Shown here one piece after another: positions 36,559 through 44,384 of a DNA stretch of 64,000 bases. The DNA comes from Hydrogenophaga borbori (lineage in GTDB: Bacteria; Pseudomonadota; Gammaproteobacteria; Burkholderiales; Burkholderiaceae_C): the NCBI RefSeq assembly GCF_003417535.1, contig NZ_QVLS01000002.1:434001-498000 (forward strand), read 5' to 3'. A program made the translations under genes and the position numbers. The notes under the pieces were generated by a model that saw nothing but the letters and a program-made list of their open reading frames with translations, searched no databases and had not been told where the DNA came from. Positions within the stretch are counted from its first letter, which is position 1; each line of letters opens with the position of its first letter.

Positions 36559-36843
36559 ATGCCCCCCGCGCCCGCCACGAACCCGCGCCACGACCGCCGC
36601 GCACTGGCCTTGAAGGCCGTGTTGCTGGCGGTGCTGGTGCTGGTGTCCTTCGGTACGTGCTTCTTCGCCCGAGAGCTCAGCTTCTCCGTGATGGGCTGGC
36701 CCCTGCATTTCTGGATCGCCTCCCAAGGCGCGGTGCTGGTGTTCATCGCCATCCTGGCGGTCTACACCTGGGCCATGAACCGCCTGGAGGCGCGCGACGG
36801 CGAGGGCGGCGGGGACGGGCCGGACGGGGACGGCGGTGGCTGA
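36559..36843 (+). CDS. DUF4212 small subunit of a sodium/solute symporter (copy 1)
   Basis: 94 aa with two hydrophobic helices (about residues 17-38 and 48-70) separated by FARELSFSVMGWPLHFWIASQG, the DUF4212 signature. The C-terminus is a Gly/Asp-rich tail. These proteins are always encoded just before a VC_2705-type symporter and are presumed accessory subunits. Its stop overlaps the GTG of the large subunit by 8 bases. A paralogue with the same arrangement is at 42006. Confidence 0.85.
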   Translation: MPPAPATNPRHDRRALALKAVLLAVLVLVSFGTCFFARELSFSVMGWPLHFWIASQGAVLVFIAILAVYTWAMNRLEARDGEGGGDGPDGDGGG

Positions 36844-38899
36844 GGGCCCCGTGTACGCCGCCTACCAGCGCCGCCTGCACCGCATCCTGGCGCTCTATGT
36901 GCTGGCGCTGATCGCTTTCCTGCTGCTGATGGCCTGGGCCGAGCAGAGCGGCCTGTCGCGCCGCTGGCTGGGGCCGATCATGTTGTTCGCCACCGTGATG
37001 ATGTACGGCGGCATCGGCGTCTATGGCCGCACCGCCGACCCCGAGGAGTACTACGTGGCGGGCCGGCGCATTCCGCCGGTCTACAACGGCATGGCTGCGG
37101 CCGCCGACTGGATGAGCGCGGCGTCCTTCATCAGCCTGGCCGGCGGTCTTTACCTGCAGGGCTTCGGCGGCACCGACGTGCATGCGGGGGGACTGGCTTT
37201 CGTGCTGGGCTGGACCGGCGGCTTCTGCCTCGTGGGCCTGCTGATTGCGCCGCACCTGCGTCAGCTCAACCTCTACACGGTGCCCGAGTACTTCATGCAC
37301 CGCTTTGGCGGCCGGTGGCCGCGCCGTCTGGCGGCGTTCTCGGCGATCTTGTGTTCCTTCACCTACGTGGTGGCGCAGATCTATGGCATCGGTCTGGTGG
37401 CTTCGCGCCTGACCGGGGTGCATTTCGAGATCGGCATCATGCTGGGCCTGGGCGGGGTGGTGCTGTGTTCCTTCCTGGGCGGCATGCGGGCCATCACCTG
37501 GACCCAGGTCGCGCAGTACGTGATTCTGCTGCTGGCCTTCCTGGTCCCTGTGTCCTGGCTGGCCTACCAGCAGTTGGGCAACCCCCTGGCGCCGCTGGCC
37601 TACGGCAAGCAGCTCGAGAAGATTGCCGCGCTCGAGAAGAAGCTGCAGGCCTCGCCGCAGGAGCAGGAGGTGCAGGCCGAGTTCCAGGCGCGCGCCCGCC
37701 AGTACCAGCGCTGGCTCCAGGACGTGGAGGGCTCGCTGCGGGAGCAGCGCACCCTGGCCCAGGAGCGCGTGCGCGAGCTGGTGGCCCAGAACGCCCCCGT
37801 CGAGCGCGTCGTGGCCGCGCGTCGGGCGCTGTCGGCCTTGCCCAGGGACTCGGCCGAGGCGCGCGAGCAGTGGGCGCGCGCCATGAAGGACAGCCAGGAC
37901 CGTTCCCGTGTCCTGGGCGGGCTGCCGCCGCACACGCAGGCCTATGTCGGCGATCCGAACGGCAGCGAGGCTGAGCGTCAGGCCTTTCAGTCGTCCCGCG
38001 CGAACTTCCTGGCGCTCATGTTCTGCCTCATGGTGGGCACCGCCGGGCTGCCCCATCTGCTGACGCGCTACTACACCACGCCGTCCGTGGCCACCGCGCG
38101 GGCCTCCGTGGCCTGGTCGCTGTTCTTTATTGCGCTGCTGTACCTGAGTGCGCCCGCGCTGGCGACACTGGTGAAGTACGAGCTGATGCAGAACGTCGTG
38201 GGCAGCCACTTCAACGCGCTGCCGTCGTGGATCGCGCAATGGTCCCACTACGACGATTCGCTGCTCTCGGTGCGCGACATCAATGGCGATGGCATCCTGC
38301 AGTTCGGCGAGATCCGGCTGGGGGCCGACCTGATCATGCTCGCCACGCCCGAACTGGGCGGCATGCCCTACGTGGTGTCCGGCCTGGTGGCCGCGGGTGG
38401 TCTGGCCGCCGCGCTGTCCACGGCCGATGGCCTGTTGCTGACCATCAGCAACTCGCTGGTGCGCGACACCTACTTGCAGGAGTTCGGGCGCCATGTGGCC
38501 CCCGAGCAGCGCGTGATCCTCTCCAAGTTCGCGCTGTTGAGTGTGGCCACGGTCGCGGCCTTCGTGGCATCGCTCAGGCCGGCGGAGATCCTGCCGCTGG
38601 TGGCCTCATCGTTCTCGCTGGCGGCCTCAGCCCTGGTGCCGGCCATGGTCATGGGCATCTTCTGGTCGCGCACCACGGGCGCGGCGGCGGTGGCCGGCAT
38701 GCTCGCGGGCCTGAGCGTGACGGTGGGCTACATGGTGCTCAACGCCCCGGCGGTGCGGGCCGTGCTGCGGTTGCCGGCCGGCCAGTCGCTCTGGTTCGAC
38801 ATCCAGCCGGTGTCCGCGGCGGTGTTCGGCGTGCCGCTGGGTTTTGCGGTCATCCTTGTCCTGAGTGTGCTGACGCGCCGCCGCGTGGCGGGGGCGTAG
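36836..38899 (+). CDS. Sodium:solute symporter, VC_2705/ActP-like (copy 1), with coiled-coil and EF-hand inserts
   Basis: 687 aa SSSF transporter in the inner membrane, probably for short-chain carboxylates. Core helices include EEYYVAGRRIPPVYNGMA and AAADWMSAASFISLAGG, the sodium site and substrate region. Between helices, residues about 250-385 are a Glu/Arg/Gln-rich coiled coil, and residues 481-492 read DINGDGILQFGE, a perfect EF-hand loop. Both inserts are also in the paralogue at 42270. The GTG start overlaps the DUF4212 gene. Unlike its neighbour there is no strong ribosome-binding site, so translation is likely coupled. Confidence 0.87.
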   Translation: MAEGPVYAAYQRRLHRILALYVLALIAFLLLMAWAEQSGLSRRWLGPIMLFATVMMYGGIGVYGRTADPEEYYVAGRRIPPVYNGMAAAADWMSAASFISLAGGLYLQGFGGTDVHAGGLAFVLGWTGGFCLVGLLIAPHLRQLNLYTVPEYFMHRFGGRWPRRLAAFSAILCSFTYVVAQIYGIGLVASRLTGVHFEIGIMLGLGGVVLCSFLGGMRAITWTQVAQYVILLLAFLVPVSWLAYQQLGNPLAPLAYGKQLEKIAALEKKLQASPQEQEVQAEFQARARQYQRWLQDVEGSLREQRTLAQERVRELVAQNAPVERVVAARRALSALPRDSAEAREQWARAMKDSQDRSRVLGGLPPHTQAYVGDPNGSEAERQAFQSSRANFLALMFCLMVGTAGLPHLLTRYYTTPSVATARASVAWSLFFIALLYLSAPALATLVKYELMQNVVGSHFNALPSWIAQWSHYDDSLLSVRDINGDGILQFGEIRLGADLIMLATPELGGMPYVVSGLVAAGGLAAALSTADGLLLTISNSLVRDTYLQEFGRHVAPEQRVILSKFALLSVATVAAFVASLRPAEILPLVASSFSLAASALVPAMVMGIFWSRTTGAAAVAGMLAGLSVTVGYMVLNAPAVRAVLRLPAGQSLWFDIQPVSAAVFGVPLGFAVILVLSVLTRRRVAGA

Positions 38900-38943
38900 T
38901 CGCGTCGGCCTCGGGCCGGTCGCGCACCGGCATCGGTGCCGCT

Positions 38944-38992
38944 TTAAGTTCTTCTTCAGCCTCGGGTCAGTTTGAAGTCAGTTCCGGGTCAG
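38944..38992 (+). promoter_or_regulatory. Tandem 11-base-phased direct repeats (OmpR/PmrA-type operator)
   Basis: Five half-sites occur at exact 11-base steps: TTAAG (38944), TTCAG (38955), GTCAG (38966), GTCAG (38977) and GTCAG (38988). The first pair, with its preceding base, fits the PmrA/QseB-type pattern of TTAAG repeats with a 5-base spacer. The array ends about 78 bases before the MHS transporter start; TACAAA at 39014-39019 could be the -10. This points to a response regulator of the OmpR/PhoB family activating the transporter. Confidence 0.65.
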
Positions 38993-39070
38993 GGGCTGGT
39001 AAGCGCGCGTCTCTACAAATCGGCTCCGGAAGCCATCGGGCCTTCCAGCCCATTGAATGAGGAGACGCAT

Positions 39071-40807
<1,737 letters not shown>

Positions 40808-41980: not shown

Positions 41981-42005
41981 GGGTTTGTTGATGGAGGTCG
42001 ATGCA

Positions 42006-42266
42006 ATGCAATTGACAGAGAAGCACCGCCAGTACTGGCGGAAGAACCTCAACATCACGGCCATATTGCTTGCAATCTGGTTCGTCGTGACGTTCGTGGT
42101 GGGCTACTTCGCCCGGGATCTGCACTTCAACTTCTTCGGTTGGCCGTTCAGCTTCTGGGTGGGGGCGCAGGGGGCGCTGGTGGTCTATGTGGCCATCATT
42201 GCCTACTACGCCTGGTACATGAACAAGCTCGACATCGAACACGGTGTCGACGAGGCCGAGGAGTAA
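42006..42266 (+). CDS. DUF4212 small subunit of a sodium/solute symporter (copy 2)
   Basis: 86 aa from the ATG at 42006, preceded by GGAGG with 8-base spacing; earlier in-frame starts (41985, 41991) have no such site. Two helices (about 20-40 and 50-70) flank FARDLHFNFFGWPFSFWVGAQG, the DUF4212 signature, with the same spacing as the copy at 36559. It ends with an acidic tail and is followed 3 bases later by its large subunit. Confidence 0.88.
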   Translation: MQLTEKHRQYWRKNLNITAILLAIWFVVTFVVGYFARDLHFNFFGWPFSFWVGAQGALVVYVAIIAYYAWYMNKLDIEHGVDEAEE

Positions 42267-42269
42267 ACC

Positions 42270-44384
42270 ATGGCAGGCATGTTTGAAACAGGCGGCGCCG
42301 CTGGCGCCGGCTCCAACGCTGCGTTCAAGCAGCAGCTCAACAAGGTCTACAAGTGGTACACGGGGGGCTTCTTTGTCTTCGTGATTGCACTGGCCATCTT
42401 CGAGCAGCTCGGGCTGTCGCGCGAGTGGATTGGGTTCATCTTCCTGATCGCGACGATCGCGCTCTACGCCGGCATCGGCATCATGAGCCGCACCACCGAC
42501 GCGGCCGAGTACTACGTGGCCGGACGCCGCGTGCCGGCCGTGTACAACGGCATGGCCACCGGCGCGGACTGGATGTCGGCCGCGTCCTTCATCGGCATGG
42601 CGGGCACGCTCTACCTCACGGGCTATGGGGGCCTGGCCTTCATCATGGGCTGGACCGGTGGCTACTGCCTGGTGGCGCTGTTCCTGGCGCCCTACCTGCG
42701 CAAGTTCGGCCAGTTCACCATTCCCGACTTCCTGGGTGAGCGCTACGGCGGCAACCTGCCGCGTTTCCTGGGCATCCTCGCGGCCATCCTCTGTTCCTTC
42801 ACCTACGTGGTGGCGCAGATCTACGGCGTGGGCATCATCACGGCGCGCCTGACCGGCGTGGCCTTCGAACTCGGGATCTTCCTGGGCCTCGGCGGCATCC
42901 TGGTGTGCTCGTTCCTGGGGGGCATGCGCGCGGTGACCTGGACGCAAGTCGCCCAGTACATCATCCTGATCATTGCCTACATGATCCCGGTGGTCTGGCT
43001 GTCGGTGAAGCAGACCAACGTGCCCGTGCCGCAGCTCATCTACGGGCAGCAACTGGTCAAGGTGACCGAAGCCGAGACGCGGCTGATCAACGATCCCAAG
43101 GAGATCGAGGTCCGCAACGTGTTCAAGCAGCGCTCGGACGCCCTGGCCGAGAAGCTGAAGGACCCGGTCGCCGCGCTGGCCGCCGACAAGGCCGCTGCCG
43201 ACAAGAAGCTGGCCGACCTGCGCGCCGCCAATGCGCCCAGCGCCGAGATCGCGGTGGCCGAGAAGGCCGTCGCGGATCTGCCGAAGGACGAGGCCGCCGC
43301 CAAGGCTGCCTGGACGCGCGCCAAAGCCGCCGCGGACGCGAAGACCAAGCCGCTCAACGGCATGCCGCGCCACGCCGCGCAGTACGCGGGCGACCCGAAC
43401 GGCGACGCGGCCGCGAAGAAGACCTTCGACGAATCGCGGCGCAACTTCCTCGCGCTGATCTTCTGCCTGATGGTGGGCACCGCCGCGCTGCCGCACATCC
43501 TGATGCGCTACTACACGGTACCCAGCGTGAAGGAGGCGCGGGCCTCGGTCACGTGGTCGCTGTTCTTCATCTTCCTGCTGTACTTCACCGCGCCTGCCCT
43601 GGCCGTGCTGGTCAAGTTCGAGGTGTTCAACGTCCTGGTGGGCACACCGTTCAACAACCTGCCGGAGTGGATAGCGGCATGGAACCGCGTCGACCCGACC
43701 CTGCTGTCGGTGACCGACGTGAACAAGGACGGCATCCTGCAGCTCAACGAGATGAGCATCGGTGGCGACATCATCGTGCTGGCAACCCCCGCCATCGGCG
43801 GCCTGCCGTACGTGATCTCGGGCCTGGTGGCGGCCGGCGGCCTGGCCGCGGCGCTGTCCACGGCCGACGGCCTGCTGCTGACGATCGCCAACGCGCTGTC
43901 GCACGACCTGTACTACAAGATGATCGACCCCAACGCCTCGACGGCCCGCCGCGTCACGATCTCCAAGACGCTGCTGCTGGTCGTGGCCCTGGCCGCCGCC
44001 TATGTGGCATCCCAGAAGCCGGCCGACATCCTGTTCCTGGTCTCCGCGGCGTTCTCGTTCGCTGCCTCGGCGTTCTTCCCGGCGCTGGTGCTCGGCATCT
44101 TCTGGAAGCGCGCCACCGGCATCGCCGCTTCGCTGGGCATGATCGCGGGCCTGGGTATCACCTTCTACTACATGGCCACCACGCAGCCTTGGCTGCGTGG
44201 CATCTTCGGCGTCACCTCGCCGATCGAGCTGTGGTGGGGCATCCAGCCGATCTCGGCCGGCGTGTTCGGCGTGCCGCTGGGCATGGCGGTGATCGTCCTG
44301 GTCAGCCTGGTGACCCCGGCACCGAACAAGAAGATCCAGGAGCTGGTGGAGCATGTGCGCTACCCCAACCTGAAGGCCGCCTGA
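42270..44384 (+). CDS. Sodium:solute symporter, VC_2705/ActP-like (copy 2), with coiled-coil and EF-hand inserts
   Basis: 704 aa, clear paralogue of the protein at 36836. Shared core: EYYVAGRRVPAVYNGMATG, DWMSAASFIGMAG, LVAAGGLAAALSTADGLLLT. The insert (about 250-390) is here Ala/Lys/Asp-rich and coiled-coil-like. Residues 483-494 read DVNKDGILQLNE, again a perfect EF-hand loop. It probably carries acetate or another short carboxylate with sodium. With the DUF4212 gene it forms a two-gene unit ended by the terminator at 44432. Confidence 0.9.
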   Translation: MAGMFETGGAAGAGSNAAFKQQLNKVYKWYTGGFFVFVIALAIFEQLGLSREWIGFIFLIATIALYAGIGIMSRTTDAAEYYVAGRRVPAVYNGMATGADWMSAASFIGMAGTLYLTGYGGLAFIMGWTGGYCLVALFLAPYLRKFGQFTIPDFLGERYGGNLPRFLGILAAILCSFTYVVAQIYGVGIITARLTGVAFELGIFLGLGGILVCSFLGGMRAVTWTQVAQYIILIIAYMIPVVWLSVKQTNVPVPQLIYGQQLVKVTEAETRLINDPKEIEVRNVFKQRSDALAEKLKDPVAALAADKAAADKKLADLRAANAPSAEIAVAEKAVADLPKDEAAAKAAWTRAKAAADAKTKPLNGMPRHAAQYAGDPNGDAAAKKTFDESRRNFLALIFCLMVGTAALPHILMRYYTVPSVKEARASVTWSLFFIFLLYFTAPALAVLVKFEVFNVLVGTPFNNLPEWIAAWNRVDPTLLSVTDVNKDGILQLNEMSIGGDIIVLATPAIGGLPYVISGLVAAGGLAAALSTADGLLLTIANALSHDLYYKMIDPNASTARRVTISKTLLLVVALAAAYVASQKPADILFLVSAAFSFAASAFFPALVLGIFWKRATGIAASLGMIAGLGITFYYMATTQPWLRGIFGVTSPIELWWGIQPISAGVFGVPLGMAVIVLVSLVTPAPNKKIQELVEHVRYPNLKAA

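Follow-up and report, generated by a model that had tools for sequence, protein, structure and literature searches.

PhoB-type activators bind an operator just upstream of the -10 element that stands in place of the -35, an arrangement known as the class II layout. The PhoB half-site is (T)GTCAT, repeated at an 11-base step (the relevant passage of PMC4513871); a PhoB arginine contacts guanine, according to a section of PMC3973317 that also gives the half-sites of PmrA as CTTAAG and XTTAAT; and PmrA makes its base contacts through T187, N188, V192, H195, N196 and R210 (a section of PMC4660055). Two further systems act on carboxylate genes: P. aeruginosa TctD controls opdH-tctCBA (in the part of PMC4513871 dealing with it), and CrbR, of the CrbS/CrbR (MxtR/ErdR) system, controls acs and actP in gammaproteobacteria, being a LuxR-type regulator whose ACTU site is an imperfect inverted repeat (in the corresponding part of PMC5715377).

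The array of half-sites considered here lies in a stretch of 64,000 nucleotides of Hydrogenophaga borbori DNA, which we call the window. It resembles the pho box in being a direct repeat with an 11-base step and a GTCA core, but its half-sites end in G where those of the pho box end in T, and its targets are carboxylate genes. With the PmrA box it shares the half-site spacing (six bases plus five), and the TTAAG of that box resembles the first word of the array, whereas the GTMAG words are unlike either PmrA half-site. The kind of target, acs and actP, recalls the CrbS/CrbR acetate regulon, from which the array is set apart by the site description. The candidate regulator, encoded outside the window, finds its best NCBIfam match in TctD (NF012023), its kinase carries a 2CSK_N domain and tctBA is among the neighbours of the array; against this likeness, the score of 234.8 bits is below the curated cut-off of 337 bits and the array stands mostly at other transporters and acetate genes. 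The comparison with TctD was made on family score, kinase domain and targets. Taken together, the array and a -10-like hexamer behind it are probably an OmpR/PhoB-type class II activator promoter of an MHS transporter gene in a carboxylate regulon, with the candidate just mentioned as the likeliest regulator. The features concerned are as follows.

36559-38899, + strand: DUF4212 gene and sodium/solute symporter gene, upstream of the array and without an array of their own
38928-38941, + strand: terminator-like hairpin following the upstream symporter gene (1 found, against 0.2 expected from shuffling)
38944-38948, + strand: half-site 1, TTAAG; weak, within the tail of the terminator-like hairpin, without counterpart in the closest ortholog
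38955-38959, + strand: half-site 2, TTCAG; without counterpart in the closest ortholog
38966-38970, + strand: half-site 3, GTCAG; conserved core
38977-38981, + strand: half-site 4, GTCAG; conserved core
38988-38992, + strand: half-site 5, GTCAG; conserved core
38999-39003, + strand: half-site 6, GTAAG; conserved core, not in the preliminary description
39014-39019, + strand: predicted -10, TACAAA, 15 bases past the start of half-site 6
39071-40807, + strand: MHS-type MFS transporter gene, the presumed target; GTG start; best match TIGR00883, below cut-off

The array is placed between the stop of the symporter gene (38899) and the start of the MHS gene (39071); an ATG at 39069 runs straight into a stop codon, and the GTG at 39071 was taken as the start. 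Two paralogous DUF4212-symporter gene pairs (36559-38899 and 41985-44384), neither with an array, flank the MHS gene, and DUF4212-like genes with an array occur elsewhere (G229, G306, G303). The preliminary description had listed five words, beginning at 38944, 38955, 38966, 38977 and 38988, all of which are present in the 11-base phase it gave them, but the list was incomplete, having overlooked the in-phase GTAAG at 38999-39003. The total is six half-sites at an exact 11-base step, of which the right-hand four (38966-39003) form the conserved core. The pattern KTMAG-N6-KTMAG-N6-KTMAG matches the window four times, with overlaps, where 100 shuffles give an expectation of 0.01, and these four matches are the only ones in the whole 4.58 Mb genome, where the reversed pattern has 0. 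The longest half-site chain in the window is six at period 11, and no other period between 6 and 21 gives more than two; shuffling the 171-base intergenic region 20,000 times with dinucleotides preserved gave period-11 chains of two at most (112 shuffles). Strict GTCAG-N6-GTCAG pairs number seven in the genome, two of them within the array, against three in the reversed control; among the other five, only the tctBA one (L054) fronts a carboxylate gene, the rest lying in or near unrelated genes (by eye).

It is scarcely credible that the array is a functionless product of chance or of a decayed tandem repeat, or that its first word is nothing but the T-rich tail of the terminator of the upstream gene. 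Some GTCAG triples elsewhere are indeed perfect microsatellites (L082, L090, L093), and a terminator-like hairpin does precede the array, but the words are constant while the spacers vary. These six-base spacers (TTCTTC, CCTCGG, TTTGAA, TTCCGG, GGGCTG) are all unlike each other, so the array is not a minisatellite. The shuffle and period controls oppose chance as well, as do, for the core, the fixed position relative to gene and -10 and the conservation tests described below.

A -10 register is found across the relatives. In 51 of the 57 arrays that precede orthologous MHS genes in the family, the A and the T that typify a -10 stand at +16 and +20, counted from where the last half-site starts, placing an A....T hexamer exactly at +15; other offsets from 5 to 31 give 0-8. 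Four of the six exceptions have a broken chain, and five retain A....T at +15 of a later, sometimes degenerate, word (both by eye); the sixth is the window, whose TACAAA has A at position 2 as in relatives and A, not T, at position 6. A scan of 38880-39080 found no consensus -35/-10 promoter of the ordinary sigma-70 type. The locus has the marks of an OmpR/PhoB-type operator, namely direct half-sites at steps of about 11 bases and a fixed place before a -10 without a -35, the slot in the window itself being imperfect. No known RNA element was found at E <= 0.1 within 38600-39300.

Lack of the array in front of orthologous transporters had been set beforehand as the observation that would count against it; the array proved to be conserved in same-genus and betaproteobacterial loci. 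An MHS-type match was present in 22 of 60 same-genus genomes (own included), and 17 upstream regions, again including our own, were compared. The 92%-identical ortholog (L005 of G022) is preceded by GTCAG, GTCAG, GTCAG and GTAAG, which are the right-hand four sites of the window. Eight loci (L006-L012, L026) carry a single GTCAG-N6-GTCAG pair, which lies 99-118 bases ahead of the codon that aligns with residue 19, and seven (L013-L018, L027) have no gene-strand pair. At L013 an array on the opposite strand precedes a DUF485-ActP pair, and similar words occur in that same opposite orientation at L015 and L027 (by eye).

Among 80 named MHS loci, the gene strand has 52 KTMAG pairs with a spacing of 11, every other spacing between 5 and 21 giving 0-7; further peaks occur at 22 (21 pairs), 32 (16) and 43 (12). 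On the opposite strand, the upstream regions have six pairs with a spacing of 11. A gene-strand chain is present at 32 of the 80 loci, 31 of them betaproteobacterial and one (L160) titled only Proteobacteria, the class being assigned by record title and in part by genus. None of the 36 alphaproteobacterial loci has a gene-strand chain, and no repeat precedes MHS at 11 of the 43 betaproteobacterial loci and at one unassigned locus. The 1.434 Mb of MHS loci contain 10 chains of at least three half-sites at period 11, nine of them directly upstream of MHS, compared with 0-1 at other periods and 0 for the reversed motif. Chains of at least two number 58 at period 11 versus 4-38 at other periods from 6 to 21, an excess that is smaller outside promoters. 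The one triple chain away from MHS, TTAAG-N6-GTAAG-N6-GTAAG on the minus strand of L144 (16770-16796), lies before an ABC-transporter-like gene (by eye).

The left pair of half-sites is missing from the promoter of the closest ortholog (L005 of G022), and its first word, TTAAG, sits in the T-rich tail of the terminator-like hairpin. The pair had been described as PmrA/QseB-like; of its words only the first (within TTTAAG) is close to the PmrA box, and neither matches CTTAAG or XTTAAT. The left pair is the weakest part of the array; it may still be real, since in G022 the DUF485-ActP genes are preceded by six sites in the same arrangement, the first two with T-type words and the other four with G-type ones.

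Genes preceded by the array point to a putative carboxylate regulon. A first scan covered 150 family genomes and was then extended to 399; there, 89 genomes account for 110 matches to GTCAG-N6-KTCAG-N6-GTMAG, and the reversed control gives 21. Each listed match was inspected, and merging of overlapping ones leaves 97 arrays. These precede orthologous MHS genes in 57 cases, DUF485 genes in four and DUF4212 genes in three (calls that rest on 31-37% identity and are hence less sure), with 33 arrays preceding none of these. Family matches identify seven of the 33 as fronting malic enzyme (3), acetyl-CoA synthetase (2) and TctB (2). Of the 26 left, one is an MHS-type array truncated at a contig end (L217, with the sequence of L260), and the others are microsatellites, intragenic or in front of unrelated genes (by eye). 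In H. borbori itself, GTCAG-N6-GTAAG stands before acs and is followed by CACAGT at +15; the GTCAG pair before tctB has no -10 hexamer at +15. No full ActP was found in this genome, the only matches being the two DUF4212-linked symporters of the window.

This set of genes bears on whether the array might be a true pho box through which PhoB activates the transporter under phosphate limitation. We consider this very unlikely. The PhoB half-site is near GTCAG and equal to the array in its step, and a PhoB-like protein is present in H. borbori (L039, named by eye); but all GTCAG words in the window end in G rather than in the T of (T)GTCAT, the arrays front acid transporters, acs and maeB rather than phosphate genes, and the linked regulators, described next, are TctD/PmrA-like.

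As had been stated in the preliminary description, the window contains no histidine kinase or response-regulator gene: none of the 16 OmpR-type DNA-binding and 57 kinase-domain matches of the genome falls within it, and the receiver-domain profile has no match there. The candidate TctD/PmrA-like response regulator (L044, hereafter the C2 regulator) is encoded outside the window on contig C2, at C2:200569-201234, and has the OmpR/PhoB response-regulator architecture, with a PF00072 receiver and a PF00486 Trans_reg_C domain, both over cut-off; the gene behind it encodes the kinase with the 2CSK_N domain. An OmpR-type profile run on 95 loci (the 80 named ones and 15 genus neighbourhoods) matches at seven, strongly and together with a receiver domain at L144 and L159, the others being L104, L167, L173, L161 and L174. 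In L144 (Pigmentiphaga) regulator, kinase, array and MHS follow consecutively, and in L159 (Limnobacter) regulator and kinase lie at most 4 kb from MHS. With the C2 regulator these two regulators share 71-73% identity, and with no other H. borbori regulator more than 47%; their kinases are 50-52% identical to the kinase encoded behind the C2 regulator. Only these 2 of the 95 loci with flanks have a C2-type regulator near MHS.

Homologs of the C2 regulator at E <= 1e-70 give 60 matches in 54 of 120 genomes of the order, and the upstream 350 bases were compared for 50 of the 60. GTMAG-N6-GTMAG occurs upstream of the regulator at 20 of these 50 loci, always on the opposite strand and never on that of the regulator; opposite-strand pairs at spacings of 5, 14 and 25 number 1, 1 and 2, against the 20 at spacing 11. 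The genes faced by these pairs include DUF485-ActP (L308, L312, L313, L318) and DUF4212-SSS (L310). Because 20 of 50 homolog loci carry the pair, and 20 of 20 pairs have A....T at +15, the C2 regulator family is associated with a GTMAG repeat of 11-base step whose -10 spacing is that of the window array. The order-wide scan for triple arrays matched in 9 of 120 genomes versus 9 control matches, several of them microsatellites by eye; since this is not above control, no claim of co-occurrence with the regulator is drawn from it. Homologs of other families (L283, L288 and similar) face outer-membrane efflux or D-Ala-D-Ala carboxypeptidase genes over the same GTMAG pair (one of each checked), as if the operator type had been kept and the targets changed; at some loci the gene faced is unclear.

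The assignment to the C2 regulator itself must be tempered by its own clade (93/97 support), in which a pair beside the regulator is present at only 2 of the 18 loci compared (L271, L276); the link therefore rests on homology together with L144, L159 and L276, the last a member of the C2 clade in which ActP precedes the regulator, both being encoded on one strand. No GTMAG pair lies upstream of the H. borbori C2 regulator gene, a point in favour of an operator of the same kind serving some other OmpR-family regulator, for instance L051, a QseB/PmrA-like paralog, or a regulator without a genomic link. That the genome encodes 16 OmpR-type DNA-binding proteins, L051 among those with Arg at the key helix position, lends this some weight; still, we think it unlikely, given the closeness of the L144 and L159 regulators to the C2 regulator over all others in H. 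borbori, and since the regulators next to GTMAG pairs came out of a search for C2 homologs.

The recognition residues are consistent with the motif. The closest solved relatives of the C2 regulator are PmrA/BasR (4s04, 8jo2), and at the six PmrA contact positions, numbered by alignment, it has T, N, V, H, R and R, keeping five of six. The difference is at position 196, Asn in PmrA and Arg here; the guanine-contacting Arg of PhoB (part of PMC3973317) aligns to this same position, a likeness to PhoB. As far as sequence can tell, Arg at 196 fits the G of GTMAG where PmrA sites carry T. It is present in all 50 C2-regulator homologs compared (five by eye), and also in L051 and L039 of H. borbori, so the key residue does not single out one protein.

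We also encountered a symporter-type sensor kinase (G021, L071 2292-5347), with GTAAG-N6-GTCAG upstream; next come a receiver-only regulator and then a PAS/exonuclease-like protein, and ppsA- and MHS-like genes are near. It was rejected as a general partner of the array, the adjoining regulator being receiver-only (by eye) and H. borbori having only kinase-domain-level matches to the kinase. The same two observations count against a reading in which the repeat serves a DNA-binding protein of some other class, such as a LuxR-type regulator like CrbR. CrbR is attractive here for its control of acs and actP in gammaproteobacteria, but its site is an imperfect inverted repeat (both in part of PMC5715377) and the window array a direct one, and we judge such a regulator highly improbable.

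The preliminary description had read the array as a site for tandem binding by an OmpR/PhoB-class regulator, which was right in kind, supported by conservation, the fixed -10 distance and the linkage to a TctD/PmrA-like regulator. On the preferred reading of a class II activator promoter, phosphorylated regulator dimers would align in head-to-tail orientation along half-sites spaced by one helical turn, and the last half-sites would replace the -35 and recruit sigma-70 RNA polymerase to the hexamer at 39014-39019. The likeliest regulator would be the C2 one, acting with the sensor kinase encoded behind it, and its H. borbori regulon would comprise MHS, acs and perhaps tctBA, to which relatives would add DUF485-ActP, DUF4212-SSS and maeB. 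We infer binding, activation and phosphorylation, as well as the signal (acetate or related acids), from this arrangement.

The kind of operator is familiar; the motif, the regulon and the regulator assignment did not turn up in the literature searched, which was mostly open-access. The evidence is evenly balanced on a broader proposal, by which Burkholderiales would have a dedicated, unnamed two-component acetate/carboxylate regulon (MHS, ActP and DUF4212 symporters, acs, maeB, tctBA), governed by a TctD/PmrA-like regulator in which an Asn-to-Arg change of the recognition helix turned a PmrA-like TTAAG half-site into GTMAG, and filling the role that CrbS/R has in gammaproteobacteria. For a large group of bacteria from soil and water, the locus offers an operator, a regulon and a regulator of carbon-acid uptake that can be tested directly; it is also a clean case of how one recognition-helix residue may shift half-site choice in the PmrA/PhoB fold.

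Two smaller features were seen in relatives. In L276, GTAAG-N6-GTAAG with TATTCT at +15 reads outward from the regulator gene, into the 3' end of actP, and no clear gene was found there; this promoter-like repeat perhaps gives rise to an antisense transcript. A GGGTT box lies 17 bases before the first GTCAG, off the 11-base phase, in 48 of 56 family MHS arrays (e.g. L242, L213; the 57th was left out because of a contig end) and is absent from the window array; a second factor may bind there. TAGGG...CCCTA inverted repeats, related to GGGTT, occur upstream of MHS in L011-L015 (by eye).
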